From positions 1 through 25,660 of IMG/VR virus record IMGVR_UViG_3300034198_015833: a stretch of 25,660 nucleotides of DNA; one strand, 5' to 3'. This document shows positions 1,306 through 12,096 of the stretch, one piece after another. Numbering within the stretch: position 1 is the stretch's first letter; each line of letters begins with the position of its first letter. The translations under genes were made by a program, and so were the position numbers. Source of the DNA: a virus. The notes beneath the pieces were generated by a model. The model worked only from the letters and a program-made list of their open reading frames with translations. It made no database searches and was not told the DNA's origin.

Positions 1306-4300
1306 TTAGTTCTTAGGCGGTGGGCCTACTAATGGAGCAAGTGGGTTCTCGGTGTTGCCCTCATAGAGCTCTAAGATTCCGCGCACAGTGCGCTCAAGTT
1401 GCAGGGCTGGGTAGTGGAACAAGACACCGGCAGTTGCATTGGCTGCACGAAAAAATGCTTCATCCGCTTCGCCCTGCTCAATTTGCTTGGCAAACTTGGC
1501 TACATCGGAGAAGAAGCGCGCGCCGGCTGGACCTTCGTAGCCCATGAAGCCGGAGACAACACCGCTGAATTCGCGCAGGCCCACCACCATCCCCATGGGG
1601 TAAGTGATGTTGGCTGCAATCAGGTTCTTTATTAATTTCTCTTCGTCATCGTCTTTGCCCTTGACAGCAGCGATAAGGAAATACCCAAGCGTTGCCGGCA
1701 CCATCGTCAACATAAGAACATCTGCCGCCAGAAGGGGTAGACGGCTAGGTCCAACCAAACGAGTCTCATTGATGGACTCGGTCAATTGGTTGTAGGCGAC
1801 GTTAAAGAAAGAATAGAAGTTAGTCCACAACTTTTGAAACTCGTTACCTCGCTGAGCCATTGAAAGGTCTTTGATCTGGCCGCCACCTTGGGAGTCGAGC
1901 ACAGCCTGGTCAGCCATGGCAATTGCTTTAGGCTCATCAACTCCGCTTGCCATCGATTTCTCATACTGACCCAACCAAGTCGGCACGTCTGCTACGAGCT
2001 GCATCTTGCCGATCAGATAGAAAAACGTGCCCTCCACTGCTGAGCGAGTTTCACCCTTGCTAATGGTGTTGCGAATTTCGCTGATCTCACGTTGTTGCGT
2101 TTTAGCGCGCAAGCGCATGAATTCTGATCTATCACTTATCCATCCAACGGTGTTCTCCATGCTGGCCGCATCGCGTAACCAGCGGCCCATTCCTTGCGCA
2201 ACCCACTTAGGTCCAATGCGCACAATGGACTGAGTCAAGCCCAGGGGTTGCTGCAGTGAGGTGACCAAGTTCCACCCCATAGATGCGATGGAGGCACCAC
2301 TTCTGATCCAGCGCACACCGCGCTCAACAACATTGGCACTTGGCAACTCGCCAATCGCGATGTCCTCAAACATTTTGCGCATGGTGCTCAATACTTCTGA
2401 GCCGTAGTGGTCTCGAATGGCCTGGTCAACTGGACCTGAGCGCAAGAGTCGATTGGCGTCCACCAGGTACTCGTGCCAAGACAAGTCGTGGATGACTTGG
2501 TTCAAGTGCTGGTCTATGACCCCAAGGTCGTAGCGCATAGGACGGTCTACAGATTCCACGCGCGCCTCGATATGGCCGCGGGCAGTTTGCGCTCTGGTGT
2601 AGAGACCGCGCTCCATTTGCTTTAGGACTTCTGCAGCCGTATCAGCTTCTGCTTTACTCGAGCGAGCTGCAGAGTATTTGATTGGGTAGTAGCCGCCTTG
2701 CAAAGACATCTGGGTGCCGTCTTGCAGCGTCACAAGGAACGGGCGTGATGCAACCTTCTCAGGAACGATGCCTGTCATGCGGCGCTCTTTGGCTGAAATC
2801 TCTGGCCAGTAGGTGTTGAGGTAATCCCAAATGCTTTGCACAAAATTCCACTGGTCTCTAGTCAGTGAGCCGACCACGTCGTTGACTTGCCCTGCATTCC
2901 AGCCCTCGCCCTCCATGACGCGGCGCATGTTGATCTCGTTGCCCATGTTCAAAGCAATGGCCAAGCGTCCTTCTAGGGATAGGCTGCCACCAATGGAGGG
3001 GATGAGCATCTTGCTGTCTAAGTTGACTTTGCCAAGAAGCTTGTATATCTCAGCCAACTTGACGGTGGCTTTCTCGCGCATGGAAGCTTCCTGATTACCG
3101 GCCTCGTTCATGGGGCGAGAGAAGGTGGACCACAAGAATCCACCGTCTTTAAAGCCATCCATCTGCCGGATAAGGGAAGCAAATTTCCTGTGCCAGGCAA
3201 GGACCTCATTGCCATTATTTACAACGGCATTGACCAAGCCTTTTTGCTCGAGCTGGGGTTGGATGTTTTGCGTAGCGTTGGCCCGTATGGTCTCGCCCGC
3301 CTCAGTTGCGATGACCTTGAATTCACGCTGGTCTTGTATTTTTAAGAGCTTGTCTTTTAATCGTCCGATGTGCTCGATGTTGCGCACAGCGTCCACCAGT
3401 CCGCGGAAATCTTCTAGCGTCATCTCTTTGTAAGACACGCGGTAGGCATCATTGAGCAGCTTTGGATCAATGACAGGCTCAATGCCTTTGGCTTGCTGGG
3501 CAGCAACAAATTGCACCAGAGAGCTGCGCCTATCGATTGCACGCAAGGTGGTGCTGGTGCGCAAATCGAACCTGTCTAGCAAGTCGTGAATTTGCTCGAG
3601 GTAGTCGACGTTAATTGTTTTGTAGATGTTCTTGCTATCAAAGCGACTCAAGTAGCGCACGGCCTTGATGACTTCGTCTTGCGCGTTGTAAGCTGCTTTG
3701 GCAGCATAGGTGTTGATGAGCTGATTGCGCTTTTCTGTAGCGGCTTCGACCAGGTTGGAGCCTGCTTTAACGGCGCTCTTTGCAGCGCGTGCAGCAGAGG
3801 CGGCGTATTGGCCAGGCTTGATGTTGCGAATCTGCAGGCGGTTAATCATCATCTCGGCAAACTGCTTGGCTGCAGTGGCTAAGATTTTTGGACGACCGGT
3901 CGCTTTTGCTAGCGCGTTGGCCTCAGCCGCCACGAACTTTGCACGAGCTTCGTTGTGGATAGCTTCGTCGGCTGCTTTGGAGAGGACTTGTGGACTATTG
4001 ATATCACCGTAGCGCTCTAGCATGCGTTGATCTGTAGCTTGCTCAATGACACCTCTTGGATCGGGCGCCTCAAGAAGTGAGCGCACCAAATGGTCGCCAG
4101 AGGTAAAGCCAAACATCTCGGCTACCTGGTTAGGGTGTATGCCGTTCTCTACACCCAGCATGCCGTATTTGCCGTGACCTAGCTCAGACTTGATGGTGCC
4201 CACGATGGGGTTGTCACCATACATAACTTCGATCTCGGGAATCGATAGCTTGTAGCCGCCTTCAACGGGTTGGCCATCAATGGTGCCGCGCTTTAAGAAT

Positions 4301-7300
4301 TCTCGAGCTCGGTAGACCGGCTCACCCATCACTTCGACTTCTACTTCGCGGCGCACTTCTTTGCGCAATGACGCGTTTTCTTTCTCCATCGCTTTGAGGA
4401 CTCGCGACTTGGCGTTGGATAGCCACTTCATGTCGCGCAGTGATCTGGCTTGCAATTCGTTGATAGCTTCCATCGAAGCTGCGACGTCAGAGAGCTGGTA
4501 CTCCTTCCACTCATCATTGGTCATGAAGGGTGGCTTGTTCTCAAACAGCGGCACAAAGGTGCGCGCCTGCTCTGCCTCTTGAATGGCTGCTGATGTTGCG
4601 ACCATGCGGTCAAAGACGCCGCGTATCTCATCATCAAGCTCTACGTTTAGAGCTTTAATTTGTTTGTAGACATTTACTAGCCAAGCTCTAAAGCGTTGGA
4701 AGATCGATTGCAACTCGAGGTTGGGGGACTTGCCCTCAAAGAGGTAGGCTTCAAAACCGCGTGCAAATTTCTCATGCATGGGGCGACGCTCTTCCAGCGG
4801 CATGGATTTCCATGCAGCCAGGTCAGTGACGCCAAACCATTTGAGAATGGCCTGCATGTCGTCTGTAATTTCTTGAGGTGCATTGGGCCGTGAAGCAATG
4901 TCCGCGGTGACTTCCAAGAAGAAGTGCCCCGACTCATGCAAGAACGTAGACAGATTAGCCGCTTTAAATAGCGTGATGACCGAGGGGGTCTCGGTGATGT
5001 CTGTGCCAAAGCTAATCTTGCCGCGAGGTCCTTGGTCGCCTTGGTAGAGGACAGAGTTCAAAGGAGCTAACTTTTTGGCAGCGCGCGTTTGCGCGGCTAA
5101 TGCTTTGCCATAGTCATCAAAGCGTTTACCGTCTTTGATGTCATAGCGACCCATGAAGGCTTTATCTAAAACCATCATCACAACATCTGGCTCGCCATTG
5201 TTAAATTCGCCAAAAGCTTTTTTGCTCCAGTTATTAGGCGATTGCGATTCATCCCAGCTCATGCGAGATGTGGCAACAAAGCCGTGCGCTGCGTAGTAAG
5301 TGGGAAGGATGGTGTCAAAGGCGTCTAGCTTGGTGCCGCCTGCAGCGACCGCCAGTTCCATGACAGAGCGTCCTGCGCTTGAACCTTTGCCAGAAAAGAC
5401 CGAGACGATATCGCCATCGGGTTTGATGGCTACTCCGCTCTTGCCGTCCTCAGCCAAAAACAAGCGCATGCTTTGATATTCATTAGCCGAGTAAACGTAG
5501 ACCGCAGAGCCAAATGCACCGCTTGAATTTTTACTCTCAATGATTGCATTTTCAAACCGTGTAGCGTTTTTCTCATCGCCTTGGGCAAGCTCATAAAACT
5601 TAGGAGTTGTAATTCCATTGGCTTTAAAAATAGTGCCCAGTGATTTACCGGCTTTCCACTCGGTGGTGTAAGTAACCCCAAGTGCTTTTTTAACTCTGGG
5701 TTTTAAAGGCCCAGGGCGTCCATCATATCCATCGCCGTCTCTTTGGTAAGTTGCGGATGATTGCGCATCGCCTGCGCGATGGGATCGAGCTCGTTGGACT
5801 GCAACGGCTCCGATGAAGAACCGTTTCTCGCGAGAAGTAAAGCTTTCAGTTTGGGGCTGCTGCCCTTGAGGTTGGACTGGTCGTTGTGCTCCATCCTCAG
5901 ATCGTGCATTTCCTGTGCGTCCATTTTGCTCTTCCTTTTTAAATGCGTTTTGAATCCTGCGATCTGTAACGCCTTTGGTTCGTGCGACGTCTGCTGCCGC
6001 ATTGGCGTAGTCAGGAGCGTCCTCATCATTGTACCCCTCTGTTGAGTCTTCCTCATCAGCATTGTCTTTAGCGGTTTCATACAGTCGTTTTTCCGCATAC
6101 CAAAGGACGGCCTGCAAATCGGCCATGGTGAGGTCAGCGTACTCGGGACGGGTTCTGAGCTCAGTGAGCATGTCGCCAAAGACGCTGCGAATGTAGTTGC
6201 GCTCGGTAGGTCCCGCTGGCGCTTCCTTTTGGCCATCCAAATACTTGGCTAAGGAGTTGCCTGCTTTTCTAAATTCCACCCCCGCTTCGGTCTCATTCAT
6301 TTGCTCGCGCAGCTTAGGGTCCATGCTGGCTTCTTGGACTTGAACGGCAAGTTCGTCTAGGGGCGTATCTTTGGCAAACCTATCACCAAGGATGGCCTTC
6401 ATCTTTTCATCTTCAAAGAGCGCATCTCTGGCTACAGAAAAGCGGTCTCTTGCTTTTGCGGTTTGCACGGGCTGGGGCTTAATCAGCGTGCCCGTCCAAC
6501 GGCCCCAAGTGCGCACCAACCAGCGGTCCATGGTGAGTGCATCAAAGTTACCGTACAGGTTTGAGAAAAACCCGTTACCAATCTTGGGCCCAATGATCGC
6601 TGCACCTTTGACCATGGTGGCCGCATGCTCGCCACCAGGCTTGAGGCTTTTGCTTAGCGACGTAATCTCACCAACGGTAAAGTTAGTGAGCATGAAGCGG
6701 CGCAAATCGTCAATGCCCCATTGAGCCTTCAGATCGTTAAATAACTGAAGCGATTTGTTGATTGCTTTTTGAGCTTGGCCGGCTTGGATGTTGGTGGGCA
6801 TGGAGCCCGTTTTTTTGTACTCAACATAAGCCAGCTCTGCCAACTCAAAGTTCTTGCCAACCTTCATGCCGTTGCTAGTTACGGCCAAGGCCCAAACAAA
6901 TGCAAAACGTGCGTTTTCGTCGGTGGCAATTTCTGGGTGTACCAGCGCCATGACGGCCAATGCTTGGCGCGTTTTGATGTCATACCAACCAATGGCATTA
7001 GGGTTTTGCGCAAGGGCCAGCAAAGCATCCTGCACGCCCACACGCACGAGGTACTCAGTCGACTGAGGGGAAGGTAGCCCAACGTCTACGCCGGCGGCTT
7101 GTGCAGCGCCCTGCACTGCTTCTTGGATTGCTACTTTTAGATCACGTCCTTTGTTCCAGACTTTGCTTTTAGCAACCTTTAAAGCATTGACCAGGGCAGA
7201 CTGCTCGTCCACGGCGGTAGGCACATTGCCTTGAACGCCGGACTCTACGTCGTCGGAGAGCTCTTTTTCTTTGGCGTCTTCGGCCGCGTACTCTTTGCCT

Positions 7301-9786
7301 AACTCGCTGTCTTGGTTAAGTACTTGGCGAGACACAATGCCTTGCCCAACATCTCGCTCTGTTTCAAAACGTATTGGATTTTCAACCGGGTATAAATATT
7401 TAACCCCGCCTGGTGCCACATCAAATTGACTTCCCTCTGGCACCAAATGCTGGTCTTGCATTTTTCGAAACTCAGATTCGTTAACTTTTAAAGGCTCACC
7501 CAAAGTAACTTCACCAATTGCTTTGGCTGTTCCCTCGCCTGTGCGAACAATCGCAATGCGTTGTCCTACATATGCACGCAAAGAGTCAGTATTTCTTGTT
7601 TCGTATTTCTTTTTACCATCAACAATTTCATCGGCATAACGCAGCCCGGCTTGGGTGTCACTGCGCACATTAATACCCATTAGGCGACCGTCTTGAAAAA
7701 AGAAGTCTCCTTGATCAAACTCGCTGTTGGTGTTAACACCATCCGCGCTGACCTTGATGGGATAGCGCACAGCCATCTCCTCTGGGGTGATGCCAAGCTT
7801 GGAAGCGGTCACGCCGTAGAACGTAGACATCAATGTGGCGTAGCCTTCATTGACATCATTGGTAAAGCGCTGGGTGCCTTGGAGCTCAGTCAAGACTTGT
7901 TGCTTGACCACATCCATGGATGCTTTAAATGCGTCGTCACCCTGCTTGTCTGCAAGCACTTTCTCGACTTCAGCTTTGAGGATTTCGCCCTGGTTTTGCA
8001 TGTACTCATCGGCCTGTACTTTGCTCATCCCGCTGGGGTCAGATTTCAAATGCGGCAACAAAGATTGCGCGTAATCGCTCCCGGCTATGCGCGCGGCAAA
8101 TTCCGATACGGGAATGGCCACATCGGTGCCGGTCTTCAAAGACTCTTCCAGGTTGGCCAATGAAGGCACATTGGCAATCACCTGGTCGATGTTGGCACCG
8201 GCAGCGGTCAACGTATCAATTAGCGTCTGGGGCTCTATGTACAACGTGTTGACGGGTGCATCTTGGGTGACAGATTGCATGAACCCTTCAAAGCTTTGCA
8301 CGTCACGCTCGCGCACTTTGCTGGCTGAGGAGAGATCGTTCAAACCATTTAAAAGATTAAAAAGTTGATTAGCTTTGCCGGCTTCTTCCTGGTCTTTTTG
8401 CATTTTGCTGGCGCCTCCAAAAAGAGCGCCAAATGTTCCACCCGTTAAACCGCCAACAAAAAATCCTGCAGCACCAGCTTCGGCAACGCCTTCGCTCAAA
8501 GATTGGTCGCGGTTTAAGTTGTCTTTGATGGCCAGGTTGCTAGCAAACTGCTCGCCCATACTTTGCGGAGCCTCAGTCAGCGCTTCTGTCAAAAATGCTT
8601 TACCAGCGCGGGGCACTAAAGAGCCACCTTCGCTGATGATTTTTCCTAAAAACTTACCGCCATAAAAGTTAGTGATTGCATCAATTAAACCTGCCATCGT
8701 GCCGGCTTGCTCTGCCGTTGTGGCTTGCAGGTAAAGACGCGCCGCTTCCTTTGAATAGCCTTGCCGATCTATTAAGTCGTAATAGGCAGGTGAAGTTCTG
8801 AGTTGTTCATCGGTGATTTTCTCTGCTTCTGCACGCGTTTGGTTGGCTTGTTGAGCGTAACCAATCAAGCCTTCGCTGATGCCGCTATAAGCAGACATGG
8901 TCGACATTGCAACTTTGGTGGCTTCGCGCATAGCCGCTTCAGCGCCAATCTTTCCTTCTAGCTGAGAGAAAGTATTTGCAGCAGCACTTTTGGTGACGTA
9001 CATGCTCGCCAATAGCGCTGCAGTTGTGGGCAGGGATTGCAGGGCGTCTCCTACCAACTTGACTGGAGACAGGTAGGCAGCGTTGTCAGTGTCAGTTGTG
9101 AAGTATTCTTTTGCGCTGTACTTGCTTTGCACTGCAGCCGGAGCTTGGCGCATGATTTGATTTGCCAACTCTTGCTGGGTTTGTGCCCAACGCGAAAGCG
9201 CGCCGGCTGAACTTGCACGCGCTTTTTGCAGACCTGCTGGATCGTTTTTATAAAGGGTCGCTAAATCTTCTTCTGAAGTGGGGCTAACCATTCCCAAAGA
9301 TAGGACCGGTAGCGCGGCTTCAAACAATTTTGTGCCGGCCGCGGTAAGGTTTAAAACACCAGAGCCCAATGAGCGCGTTAAGTAACTGGCCGCCATTTCG
9401 ATATTGCCCATCTGCGCTGTATCGTCTTGCGCAATCTTGGCAAAGTTGGGGTCCATCAATTGACGCGCCAGCACGGGTGACTCGCTCATCATGCGCTGCA
9501 TGTCAAGGAGCCTTACGCGCTCTTTGCGGCGCACGTCTGCCAGGTTATCTTCAACGGTTTGTTGTGGCAGGCCGCTGGTGCGTGAGAGCTTTAGAGCTTC
9601 GGCTGCTTGGTCTGGATTAATGGGGCTTACAACATCTAACACGCCTTTGATTTGCTGCTGCTGCAGTTTCAAATCTTCTTTTGCAAAATCCATGTATGGA
9701 TTTGCATTGGGTGTTGATGGCTCAGGCGAAGCGACGTAAGAAGACAGGTCTTCTTGCACTAGCTTCATGTAGGGATTGTCAGCCAC
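1306..9786 (-). CDS. giant virion-ejected polyvalent protein (2826 aa; T7 gp16 position)
   Basis: This is a single 2826-codon frame with a GTG start at 9786 and AAAGGA seven bases upstream; the only nearby ATG is out of frame. It sits where T7-like phages encode the ejected core protein gp16, directly after gp14- and gp15-like genes. Visible parts: a short N-terminal duplication (NPYMKLVQEDL, NPYMDFAKEDL); a Gly/Ala-rich hydrophobic stretch at 436-460; an ASCH-like domain at about 715-810 (KKYETRNTDSLRAYVGQRIA); a helical domain at about 860-1275 with core GPKIGNGFFSNL and LTMDRWLVRTWGR that resembles an HhH-GPD glycosylase signature; a polar linker at about 1285-1365; a GNAT-like region at about 1387-1542; a zincin with H1617-E-S-G-H1621 and a downstream HEKFARGFEAYLFEG; long helical regions; and a C-terminal part with a likely membrane segment at 2684-2708. 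No lytic transglycosylase motif was recognised. Domain arrangement matches published polyvalent proteins. Individual enzymatic activities are inferred. Confidence 0.88.
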   Translation of the reverse strand: MADNPYMKLVQEDLSSYVASPEPSTPNANPYMDFAKEDLKLQQQQIKGVLDVVSPINPDQAAEALKLSRTSGLPQQTVEDNLADVRRKERVRLLDMQRMMSESPVLARQLMDPNFAKIAQDDTAQMGNIEMAASYLTRSLGSGVLNLTAAGTKLFEAALPVLSLGMVSPTSEEDLATLYKNDPAGLQKARASSAGALSRWAQTQQELANQIMRQAPAAVQSKYSAKEYFTTDTDNAAYLSPVKLVGDALQSLPTTAALLASMYVTKSAAANTFSQLEGKIGAEAAMREATKVAMSTMSAYSGISEGLIGYAQQANQTRAEAEKITDEQLRTSPAYYDLIDRQGYSKEAARLYLQATTAEQAGTMAGLIDAITNFYGGKFLGKIISEGGSLVPRAGKAFLTEALTEAPQSMGEQFASNLAIKDNLNRDQSLSEGVAEAGAAGFFVGGLTGGTFGALFGGASKMQKDQEEAGKANQLFNLLNGLNDLSSASKVRERDVQSFEGFMQSVTQDAPVNTLYIEPQTLIDTLTAAGANIDQVIANVPSLANLEESLKTGTDVAIPVSEFAARIAGSDYAQSLLPHLKSDPSGMSKVQADEYMQNQGEILKAEVEKVLADKQGDDAFKASMDVVKQQVLTELQGTQRFTNDVNEGYATLMSTFYGVTASKLGITPEEMAVRYPIKVSADGVNTNSEFDQGDFFFQDGRLMGINVRSDTQAGLRYADEIVDGKKKYETRNTDSLRAYVGQRIAIVRTGEGTAKAIGEVTLGEPLKVNESEFRKMQDQHLVPEGSQFDVAPGGVKYLYPVENPIRFETERDVGQGIVSRQVLNQDSELGKEYAAEDAKEKELSDDVESGVQGNVPTAVDEQSALVNALKVAKSKVWNKGRDLKVAIQEAVQGAAQAAGVDVGLPSPQSTEYLVRVGVQDALLALAQNPNAIGWYDIKTRQALAVMALVHPEIATDENARFAFVWALAVTSNGMKVGKNFELAELAYVEYKKTGSMPTNIQAGQAQKAINKSLQLFNDLKAQWGIDDLRRFMLTNFTVGEITSLSKSLKPGGEHAATMVKGAAIIGPKIGNGFFSNLYGNFDALTMDRWLVRTWGRWTGTLIKPQPVQTAKARDRFSVARDALFEDEKMKAILGDRFAKDTPLDELAVQVQEASMDPKLREQMNETEAGVEFRKAGNSLAKYLDGQKEAPAGPTERNYIRSVFGDMLTELRTRPEYADLTMADLQAVLWYAEKRLYETAKDNADEEDSTEGYNDEDAPDYANAAADVARTKGVTDRRIQNAFKKEEQNGRTGNARSEDGAQRPVQPQGQQPQTESFTSREKRFFIGAVAVQRARSHRAGDAQSSATYQRDGDGYDGRPGPLKPRVKKALGVTYTTEWKAGKSLGTIFKANGITTPKFYELAQGDEKNATRFENAIIESKNSSGAFGSAVYVYSANEYQSMRLFLAEDGKSGVAIKPDGDIVSVFSGKGSSAGRSVMELAVAAGGTKLDAFDTILPTYYAAHGFVATSRMSWDESQSPNNWSKKAFGEFNNGEPDVVMMVLDKAFMGRYDIKDGKRFDDYGKALAAQTRAAKKLAPLNSVLYQGDQGPRGKISFGTDITETPSVITLFKAANLSTFLHESGHFFLEVTADIASRPNAPQEITDDMQAILKWFGVTDLAAWKSMPLEERRPMHEKFARGFEAYLFEGKSPNLELQSIFQRFRAWLVNVYKQIKALNVELDDEIRGVFDRMVATSAAIQEAEQARTFVPLFENKPPFMTNDEWKEYQLSDVAASMEAINELQARSLRDMKWLSNAKSRVLKAMEKENASLRKEVRREVEVEVMGEPVYRAREFLKRGTIDGQPVEGGYKLSIPEIEVMYGDNPIVGTIKSELGHGKYGMLGVENGIHPNQVAEMFGFTSGDHLVRSLLEAPDPRGVIEQATDQRMLERYGDINSPQVLSKAADEAIHNEARAKFVAAEANALAKATGRPKILATAAKQFAEMMINRLQIRNIKPGQYAASAARAAKSAVKAGSNLVEAATEKRNQLINTYAAKAAYNAQDEVIKAVRYLSRFDSKNIYKTINVDYLEQIHDLLDRFDLRTSTTLRAIDRRSSLVQFVAAQQAKGIEPVIDPKLLNDAYRVSYKEMTLEDFRGLVDAVRNIEHIGRLKDKLLKIQDQREFKVIATEAGETIRANATQNIQPQLEQKGLVNAVVNNGNEVLAWHRKFASLIRQMDGFKDGGFLWSTFSRPMNEAGNQEASMREKATVKLAEIYKLLGKVNLDSKMLIPSIGGSLSLEGRLAIALNMGNEINMRRVMEGEGWNAGQVNDVVGSLTRDQWNFVQSIWDYLNTYWPEISAKERRMTGIVPEKVASRPFLVTLQDGTQMSLQGGYYPIKYSAARSSKAEADTAAEVLKQMERGLYTRAQTARGHIEARVESVDRPMRYDLGVIDQHLNQVIHDLSWHEYLVDANRLLRSGPVDQAIRDHYGSEVLSTMRKMFEDIAIGELPSANVVERGVRWIRSGASIASMGWNLVTSLQQPLGLTQSIVRIGPKWVAQGMGRWLRDAASMENTVGWISDRSEFMRLRAKTQQREISEIRNTISKGETRSAVEGTFFYLIGKMQLVADVPTWLGQYEKSMASGVDEPKAIAMADQAVLDSQGGGQIKDLSMAQRGNEFQKLWTNFYSFFNVAYNQLTESINETRLVGPSRLPLLAADVLMLTMVPATLGYFLIAAVKGKDDDEEKLIKNLIAANITYPMGMVVGLREFSGVVSGFMGYEGPAGARFFSDVAKFAKQIEQGEADEAFFRAANATAGVLFHYPALQLERTVRGILELYEGNTENPLAPLVGPPPKN
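5703..5924 (-). CDS. candidate nested overlapping ORF inside the giant gene (73 aa, +1 frame)
   Basis: An ATG at 5924 begins a 73-codon ORF in the +1 frame relative to the giant gene, ending in TAA at 5703. AAAAAGGAAGAGCAAA stands directly before the ATG, a good ribosome binding site. By my hand count about 70% of its codons end in G or C, against about 36% for the host frame over the same bases, where CGA, GGA and CAA are frequent. The product starts MDAQEMHDLRMEHNDQ and ends DPIAQAMRNHPQLTK, ETAMDMMDALGL, which I recall as similar to C-termini of other phage proteins (NPxLTxExAxxMMxxxG). The host frame still looks real here (RFFIGAVAVQRARSHR), so both frames may be used. Alternatives are the relic tail of a formerly separate protein, a +1 frameshift product, or chance. 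The in-frame extension upstream to 6236 looks like a shadow. Confidence 0.4.
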   Translation of the reverse strand: MDAQEMHDLRMEHNDQSNLKGSSPKLKALLLARNGSSSEPLQSNELDPIAQAMRNHPQLTKETAMDMMDALGL

Positions 9787-9798
9787 GCATGATTCCTT

Positions 9799-12096
9799 TT
9801 ATTGTTTTTTGCCGCCGCGAACCCAAAAACTTGCGATGTTTTTCTCAGTGATGGGGTAACCTGCGGACTTCAAAGCAGGAATGATTTGCACGCGTTGTGC
9901 CGCTGGAATAGAGGCTATTGGTATTTTTTCTTCACCCACCATGACGTAGGCGTTTTGCAATTCATCGGCCTTCATGGTGACGATCGGCACGTCAGCTTTA
10001 TCCCACATTATTGAGCGCGACTTGTAGACCTTGTCCATCTCGACTTCTTGCAAAATTTTCTTTAACTCTTCTTGGCTTGCTTTGCGTTTGCCTTGCAAGG
10101 TAGAAGACTCGTAAGAGCTAATTCTTTGGTCAATAGCGCCCTGGAACTCATTAAAGCTTTTGGTTTGTGAGTCACCGGGTTTGCCGCTAGCGGGCAAGAT
10201 TCCCATGCGAACAGCGGAGTCTTTGACCATCTCGGCATTGCTCATGATGGACAAGTGCTGCTCGTCCTTGGAGCCATTCATAGCGTTGTTGATGGAGTAG
10301 AGCTTGTTGAGATCGGGCTCGCTGACTTTTAGGCTGTATTTGTTATAGATGTCTGTGGGCGTCATGGTCTTCAAATCAGACATATTGGTCATGACATCGG
10401 CCCAAGTGGCTGGGTCTGTTTCGACTTTGTTGCCTTTAGAGAAACCAACAACGCCTGCCAAGTGACCGGTATTTTTTAGGCCAAGATAAGCAGCGGGGTT
10501 TGCCTTTTGAAAATCCAGTATGGACTTGCCTGGGTTTTGTACAAACCAATCAGTAGCCCCACCGATCAGGCTTTTTTCGCCTTCTGCTTGTTGGGCTTTT
10601 TGTGTTTGCCAGTCTTGGGTGACGCGGGTTCTGGCTTGGTCTCTGATCGCTACGTCGTTGGGAGTTTTACCAGAGCTGTCGTACCAGTTATCGAGAGCGC
10701 GCAAGCGCGCATTCAAATCTCCTTTGCTCGCAGTGGCGCGAGACAAGCTGGTAGCTTCGACGCCCACGTTTTGCGCTTCTTCGGATTTTGTCTCGGCGTG
10801 TCGCGTGGTCAGGCCCTGCATCGTCGCGGTGTACACGCTTGGAGTTATATCTCCCGCGTTTAGCATTTGATCTAGCTTGGCGCGTTGTTGCACCAAACTG
10901 CCGCCACCGATGAGAGAGAGCGTTTGCGCAAGCTTGATAGATGCATCTGCCGTGCCTGCGGTGTCAAGGGTTTTGACAAACTCGCTGCGTTTTTCGGGAT
11001 TAATTTCCTGCTCATTGGCCGTGTAGTATTTTTTAGCTTCATCAAATTTATCTGCTGCTAAAAAACTATTGACAACTTTGCCGTGCATGTCGGTGAGCTT
11101 TATCAAGACAAACTGGCGAGCAGCTTCTGTGTCGCGTGCAAAGCCTTTGCCTTCAGCGATTGTGAGAGCTTCCTCGATGACGGTGGCTTTGGCTGTTGCG
11201 TAAGGATTAGGGGGTGCTTTTTCTTTGCTATCAAAAAATACGTCTTTGCCCTCGGCTATGCGCTTTTGTGCATGCGCTACAGCTTTATCCTCAATCGCTT
11301 TAGAAACCGGTTCGTTTCTAGAAATGTTTCCCAATACTTCGACAACTTCTTGTTTTGTTAGCGTTGGCACAAGGGTTGGGATTTGTTTTTCTTTTCCATT
11401 GATTTCAACATCAATGGTGTATTCAGTAGCAATGTCGTTTGTGCCTGGTACTTTTAAAAGACCTAAATACCCTACGCCTTTGTTATCTTCACTATTGTGT
11501 CTTTTACCTGCATTTGCCATATCAAATTCGCCAGGCTTAGCTCTGAGATCATTTAAATCTGCACGGTTTGCGTTCCAATATGGAGCGGAAACAATGGCGT
11601 CTTGCGCAGAAGCATCCAAACGTGCAGCACCACTGGCTTCTTTCCATACTTTGGATTGAGTCAAGTTATGTGACTCGATCTGGTTTAAGGCCATGTCTCT
11701 GCGACGTACTGCTACTTGGTCATACAGCTTGCGCTGCATGTCGTTTTGCAGGCCAGCGGAGTTGTCTTTAATGGCCTGATCAATTGCTTTGATGGTTGCC
11801 TCTTTTGCGTTGACCGCGTCTCCTGCTTGCAGCCCCAGGTACTGGGTATTGATGCCACGCAAGGAGTCCATCAAATTTGTGTCACGTGTTTTAGCTTCTG
11901 CTTCGTTAACATCTTTTTGCATGTCCGCGGCAATTGAGGACAGCGCTGTGCCGGCTTTTAAGGTAGCGTTGCCAAACTCTTGTTGTTGCTGGCCTGGCAT
12001 CGCGGCCATGCCTGCGCTCATGGGTGCTTCGGCGCGCGAGGGCCCTAGCACTTGAGGAGAAGCTTGGAATTCGTCGTAGGTAGGAACGCGTGGCAT
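9799..12096 (-). CDS. T7 gp15-like internal virion (ejection) protein
   Basis: 765 residues, ATG at 12096, separated by two bases from the stop of the gp14-like gene. Position between a gp14-like and a gp16-like gene, large size and a mostly helical, soluble, Gln/Ala-rich sequence fit the T7 gp15-type ejected core protein, which is released into the periplasm on infection. Assignment rests on order and composition more than on a motif. Residues about 191-290 differ: they contain a compact beta/helix module (KGVGYLGLLKVPGTND, QIPTLVPTLTKQEV, KAVAHAQKRIAEGKDVFF) that I recall from many unrelated phage virion proteins. This stretch is near 38% GC against 52-58% in nearby lines, so it looks inserted. 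The flanking helices (DLRAKPGEF and PYATAKATVIEEAL) continue on either side. Confidence 0.75.
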   Translation of the reverse strand: MPRVPTYDEFQASPQVLGPSRAEAPMSAGMAAMPGQQQQEFGNATLKAGTALSSIAADMQKDVNEAEAKTRDTNLMDSLRGINTQYLGLQAGDAVNAKEATIKAIDQAIKDNSAGLQNDMQRKLYDQVAVRRRDMALNQIESHNLTQSKVWKEASGAARLDASAQDAIVSAPYWNANRADLNDLRAKPGEFDMANAGKRHNSEDNKGVGYLGLLKVPGTNDIATEYTIDVEINGKEKQIPTLVPTLTKQEVVEVLGNISRNEPVSKAIEDKAVAHAQKRIAEGKDVFFDSKEKAPPNPYATAKATVIEEALTIAEGKGFARDTEAARQFVLIKLTDMHGKVVNSFLAADKFDEAKKYYTANEQEINPEKRSEFVKTLDTAGTADASIKLAQTLSLIGGGSLVQQRAKLDQMLNAGDITPSVYTATMQGLTTRHAETKSEEAQNVGVEATSLSRATASKGDLNARLRALDNWYDSSGKTPNDVAIRDQARTRVTQDWQTQKAQQAEGEKSLIGGATDWFVQNPGKSILDFQKANPAAYLGLKNTGHLAGVVGFSKGNKVETDPATWADVMTNMSDLKTMTPTDIYNKYSLKVSEPDLNKLYSINNAMNGSKDEQHLSIMSNAEMVKDSAVRMGILPASGKPGDSQTKSFNEFQGAIDQRISSYESSTLQGKRKASQEELKKILQEVEMDKVYKSRSIMWDKADVPIVTMKADELQNAYVMVGEEKIPIASIPAAQRVQIIPALKSAGYPITEKNIASFWVRGGKKQ

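Follow-up and report, generated by a model that had tools for sequence, protein, structure and literature searches.

In gene pairs of the lambda Rz/Rz1 type, the smaller gene is completely contained in the larger, uses its +1 frame and carries a ribosome site of its own, and the two proteins cooperate. GNAT toxin-antitoxin operons (TacAT/AtaRT) place a small gene first and the GNAT gene second, at a short distance or with an overlap, and their antitoxins are ribbon-helix-helix DNA-binding proteins. Phage polyvalent proteins have been predicted to be injected multi-domain proteins, with RimI-like GNATs among their predicted domains (Iyer et al., 2017; PMC5512222). In the MuF polymorphic toxins of temperate phages, enzymatic cargo is fused to a minor capsid protein, and a small neighbouring gene could act as immunity (PMC5576092). 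In phage P1, the small protein Hdf is paired with DarA, an internal-head protein that is ejected (PMC12810830).

The locus described here lies in a 25,660-base IMG/VR virus record (the window, meaning the whole stretch of DNA analysed). It shares with Rz/Rz1 the nested +1 layout and a ribosome site of its own, here putative, but Rz/Rz1 is a lysis pair, whereas this small ORF is embedded in a linker within a giant virion protein and accompanies a single enzymatic module across several unrelated host genes. The order of small gene and then GNAT, close or overlapping, is that of TacAT/AtaRT, a likeness known here purely from gene order and co-occurrence; unlike those antitoxins, the small protein is predicted to be all-helical and matches no family, and the GNAT is fused to virion proteins. 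With the polyvalent proteins the locus has in common a giant LPD22 protein carrying a predicted GNAT-fold module; the putative nested partner is new here, and a text search of that paper finds overlapping genes nowhere mentioned (PMC5512222). The MuF toxins likewise combine enzymatic cargo on a virion protein with a small companion gene, but no GNAT is mentioned there (PMC5576092), and in the window the small gene lies upstream and inside the cargo gene, in another frame. Hdf and DarA are encoded by separate genes, not nested ones, and the likeness drawn here is one of pairing. Hdf-DarA may serve as an analogy for a packaging reading of the small protein and the GNAT toxin-antitoxin operons for a silencing reading; membership in neither is claimed. 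Nested phage genes and GNAT domains in phage polyvalent proteins (PMC5512222) are already known. No earlier report of the small gene was found in the open-access literature, and the paper on phage DC33, a carrier of the overlap, lists 52 ORFs and nowhere mentions it (PMC12195039).

The giant gene and its nested reading frame

The features of the locus are as follows:

9799..12096, minus strand: 765-aa virion protein upstream of the giant, its N-terminal part related to phrog_10475
1306..9786, minus strand: giant host gene, GTG start, 2826 aa; relative of BPP-1 Bbp10, LPD22 polyvalent/ejection-type protein (phrog_9880)
9376..9627, minus strand: LPD22 domain of the giant
7387..7641, minus strand: ASCH domain of the giant
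5938..6999 (boundaries approximate, from alignments), minus strand: module upstream of the overlap, candidate HhH-like (the label of the first-pass annotation), ending in ..APDYANAAADVAR..
5929..5937, minus strand: Shine-Dalgarno-like AAGGAAGAG before the nested ATG; an AAGGAG/AGGA-like stretch in most relatives
5703..5924, minus strand: nested gene, 73 aa, ATG to TAA, +1 frame of the giant; kept in all testable relatives
5119..5673, minus strand: predicted GNAT-fold module of the giant (phrog_2563), directly after the nested ORF

The giant (phrog_9880, LPD22, ASCH) is related to Bbp10, a protein of Bordetella phage BPP-1. Its gene comes after those for a tail protein, an internal virion protein of 180 aa and the 765-aa phrog_10475-related protein, and this gene order is the layout of short-tailed phage ejection proteins. 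At the position of the ASCH domain (7387-7641), the giants of the relatives L002 and DC33 show what is by eye an ART-like segment, a module swap at one site.

The first-pass annotation had described a 73-codon +1 ORF with its ATG at 5924, a TAA ending at 5703, AAAAAGGAAGAGCAAA before the ATG and the giant frame open throughout, all of which is confirmed. The G/C bias in codon use that it had noted is also borne out: within the overlap, GC3 is 0.73 for nested codons and 0.35 for host codons, compared with 0.56 elsewhere in the giant. The nested frame is open upstream of its ATG as far as 6236, other same-strand ORFs of 60-110 codons are present, open +1 frames are not rare in the giant, and a host-only simulation leaves the nested frame open ~90% of the time. 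The open length alone is therefore unremarkable, and it is the conservation of the ORF that exceeds chance.

Conservation and selection in both frames

A search with the nested protein gave one close relative, L002 (65%), and a 71-aa homologue (42%) in the cultured Limnohabitans phage DC33, where it lies inside XLZ15523.1 and is absent from that phage's annotation. (The DC33 record, PQ492659.1, gives its taxonomy as Inoviridae, yet the phage is a 39-kb dsDNA phage with a short tail.) About 25 further contigs came from the nested-protein search, and more divergent ones later. The first 28 loci all (28/28) keep the ATG, the TAA and an open host frame of 1500-3150 codons, and a ribosome-site-like AAGGAG/AGGA stretch stands at the same place in most loci where the contig covers it, being weak in some AT-rich ones. 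To avoid selecting on the nested frame, the host frame alone was used as query, which gave 408 relatives, 80 of them fetched. Every locus in this set that covers the site (L104 read by hand) has a +1 ORF of ~70-82 codons that starts with ATG or GTG at a shared position and usually terminates in GF*; the exceptions are five contigs that begin inside the overlap and one (L036/L105) with a deletion that breaks the host frame too. On this last contig, 3300008113_006476 (L036, L105, L180), the deletion runs through the overlap and is either an assembly fault or real. Both frames are thus open and conserved in relatives chosen regardless of the nested frame, as expected of a dual-coding pair. Relatives with the host frame kept and the nested frame broken had been named at first pass as evidence that would speak against the gene; those found by the host frame keep the nested one.

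Synonymous change over 5703-5924, a test likewise proposed in the first-pass annotation, is strongly reduced in the host frame, and the reduction is limited to the overlap. It amounts to 0.2-0.66 of the value in the rest of the gene and is seen in 15/15 pairs spread across the family; in distant pairs, the lowest windows of 1200 codons fall in the overlap. Pooled over 12 pairs in 12-codon windows, host pS is 0.54-0.64 before the nested start, 0.11-0.35 within the nested ORF and 0.53 straight after its stop, a drop that coincides exactly with the limits of the nested ORF. Codon phase shifts as well: in most pairs the most variable site is the first position of the host codon, which corresponds to the third position of the nested codon. 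The nested identity to L002 is 0.65, against a maximum of 0.38 in 2000 host-only simulations. Two single-frame nulls, maintaining only the host protein or only the nested protein, were simulated on equal-length pairs. The host-only null yields nested identities below those observed, except in one close pair (maximum 0.86 against 0.85 observed); the nested-only null puts stops in the host frame in 83-100% of trials and gives lower host identity than observed. As neither null reproduces both identities, both amino acid sequences are under selection.

The most constant parts of the small protein are its start, M.AQ..HD, and its C-terminal end, DPI..AM..HPGLTREEA..MAE.FGF, which is helix-turn-helix-like; in L239/L266 the N-terminal part is replaced and the C-terminal end kept. 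The protein is predicted to be all-helical with low confidence (pLDDT 69, pTM 0.26), and a structure search with this model came back empty. The family search recommended at first pass gave no significant match in Pfam, PHROGs or PDB sequences, the hits being weak, at chance level and in no named family. Similarly, NCBIfam searched with a free-standing homologue as sole query gave no family match, and a plasmid search gave nothing significant. The impression that the end resembles other phage C-termini holds to the extent that HPGLTREEA-like ends are shared by other phage ORFs, but no match to a family model results. These ORFs are an HNH-like ORF and ~470-codon ORFs resembling portal proteins (L155:9867-10319, L150, L151, L157, L161), and the shared ends may reflect chance or a common helical cap; the C-terminal 27 residues as sole query found nothing else in the phage collection. 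Weak bacterial matches (L045, L136, L137; all E 0.001-0.006) were set aside, L045 having been read and found to hold no homologue.

The free-standing homologue lies on a Burkholderiales metagenome contig (L034), where a separate gene encodes 73 aa, 42% to the window protein, with the main motifs kept. It has its own ribosome site, starts at the same methionine as the nested ORF, and is located three bases after a 207-aa ORF and upstream of the type I-E genes cas3 and cse1. Since the gene is separate and the host-like frame there is closed, the nested frame appears to encode a protein able to exist alone. A lack of protein matches had been the other outcome named against the gene at first pass; relatives of the product are found, one of them free-standing. 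No further copies of the free-standing gene were found in ~800 more genomes of the order and phylum of L034. The phrog_2563 GNAT is not detectable in the genome bin holding L034 with a model that finds its phage targets as positive control, so that the small protein can apparently exist without it. The free-standing copy is part of a ~2-kb stretch of small ORFs (L034:3672-5858) upstream of the type I-E cas3. Bordered by duplicated DNA (79-85% identity), this stretch resembles an inserted cassette, and a 61-nt repeat precedes two of its ORFs. The family of the 207-aa neighbour (L138-L147) occurs in 10/399 genomes of the order, sometimes in longer ORFs, and has no Pfam match; in the loci read, no small gene of the nested family stands beside its members.

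The first-pass annotation had left open a true dual-coding gene or the fossil end of a once separate, fused protein. The kept nested frame, the reduced synonymous change and the protein relatives, including the free-standing one, support the former, and on this comparative evidence we regard a real dual-coding gene as near certain.

A GNAT-fold module after the overlap

The module that follows the nested ORF is predicted with high confidence (pLDDT 94.5) and, on this model, has a GNAT fold: the PDB matches listed in a fold search have folds of the GNAT or another N-acetyltransferase type (probability 0.99 and E 2.8e-3 for the best). It has no Pfam match. A DNA pattern for HPGLTRE(E/Q)A, used to find far-diverged ORFs, gave four; each occupies the +1 frame of another host protein and immediately precedes the same GNAT-like module. 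Two of the hosts, with near-identical sequence there, are a DUF2213 head-protease/NUDIX protein (L148 and L156); the others are a transglycosylase-headed (SLT) giant (L159) and a further giant (L160). In the minor capsid protein VG15 of Microbacterium phages Barnstormer and Caron, a ~46-codon +1 ORF lies at the same place before the GNAT, and synonymous codon differences amount to 2% in the overlap and 13-14% in the flanks. A further set was assembled with distant GNATs only as queries, counting a +1 ORF of at least 38 codons that ends between -25 and +35 bases from the GNAT start. Such an ORF is present in 34/38 loci, against 0 in the +2 frame and 9.9% at other positions of the same hosts; the 38 loci partly share ancestry, so that a binomial value overstates their independence. 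The four misses comprise a longer C-terminus (L250), a related ORF farther upstream (L257 and L307) and an open frame without an ATG or GTG start (L304). Host pS is again reduced in the informative distant pairs from other hosts.

In 741 pairwise comparisons, the identity of the nested protein follows that of the GNAT (partial r 0.70) but not that of the upstream module (0.04). The first-pass placement of the ORF at a module joint is thus correct, but the meaningful neighbour is the downstream GNAT and not the candidate HhH-like module upstream, which is present without the nested ORF in L004 and L007. On these comparisons, the nested ORF appears tied to the GNAT module (phrog_2563) rather than to the upstream module, although tighter physical linkage rather than function could explain part of the tracking. 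Fused GNATs are accompanied by the small gene but solo phage GNATs are not, none being found at those of Streptomyces, Pseudomonas and Haloarcula viruses. As the overlap recurs in very different phages, each time just before the GNAT-like part, its distribution suggests that the two products work together.

In two loci (L299:2780-2966, L322:1650-1838), CCAAAAAAAGAYTAG stands at the end of the upstream giant ORF, the ORF with the GNAT carries on in the -1 frame, and the small ORF occupies the third frame. The arrangement resembles a programmed -1 frameshift that joins the giant to the GNAT, rather than an unfused layout.

Candidate roles of the small protein

Our inference is that the small protein is started independently on the late mRNA, binds the GNAT and either silences it or helps it fold. 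A second ribosome binding site on the giant's late mRNA would allow an internal start in the +1 frame and yield the 73-aa helical protein, and ribosomes from the giant's own start would read the same DNA as the linker into the GNAT module. Small ORF and GNAT module would form one overlapping unit, moved together between virion proteins. The small protein would be a dedicated partner that binds the GNAT module in the virion-producing cell and keeps the acetyltransferase silent or correctly folded until injection into the next host. On balance we hold such a partner, holding off or folding the GNAT until injection, to be the probable role. Counting against it, solo GNATs manage without the small protein, and the L034 bin has the small protein without a detectable GNAT.

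The dual-coding product might instead serve the giant, or virion assembly generally, as a packaging chaperone or capsid adaptor (Hdf-like) that has nothing in particular to do with GNAT activity. Every identifiable non-solo host is a virion or polyvalent protein, solo GNATs, which need no packaging, are without the ORF, and the DarA and Hdf pair of P1 is bound to the inside of the head (PMC12810830). However, those giants and ejection proteins of the family that do not carry the GNAT (BPP-1, SR18, ctEw122, ctQRb9) also have no small gene, and nested identity does not follow the upstream module, which makes a general assembly role doubtful. Slightly more doubtful is an independent job in the infected cell, for example in counter-defence or takeover, for a product merely located in the linker. 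Such a job would fit the free-standing copy in bacterial DNA, which neighbours a type I-E cas operon in a bin with no GNAT detected, but it leaves the recurrence at the GNAT boundary in unrelated hosts unexplained. In a further, rather unlikely reading, the small protein would inhibit an injected phage acetyltransferase in the manner of an immunity protein; the virion gene for the enzyme would itself contain it, in another frame, and the two would move together between phages. The free-standing copy beside the CRISPR-cas operon would then be an orphan immunity gene defending against the injected enzyme.

Entry into the nested frame by ribosomal frameshifting from the giant frame, which would truncate the giant after a new tail and require no internal initiation, is compatible with the frame being open upstream of the ATG in the window. 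It is nevertheless highly improbable, given that nearly all loci share the position of the start codon and most have a ribosome-site-like sequence, that several loci have a nested-frame stop a few codons upstream of the start, and that the free-standing copy begins at the same methionine. A spurious frame, a fossil or a constraint from RNA structure only is the least credible explanation: open +1 frames may be common in the giant, but substitutions in phase with codons, a constraint that sets in and ends sharply at start and stop, selection on both frames and the free-standing homologue argue against all three, and the fossil reading is rejected.

Fully nested genes of tailed phages are easily missed, as annotation programs suppress overlaps. 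The overlapping pair described here apparently moves as a unit between virion proteins, which is unusual, since an overlap normally ties a gene to one place. If the small protein is a partner of the GNAT module, the pair would also offer a handle on the role of GNAT modules in injected polyvalent proteins, because a bound partner or inhibitor is testable.
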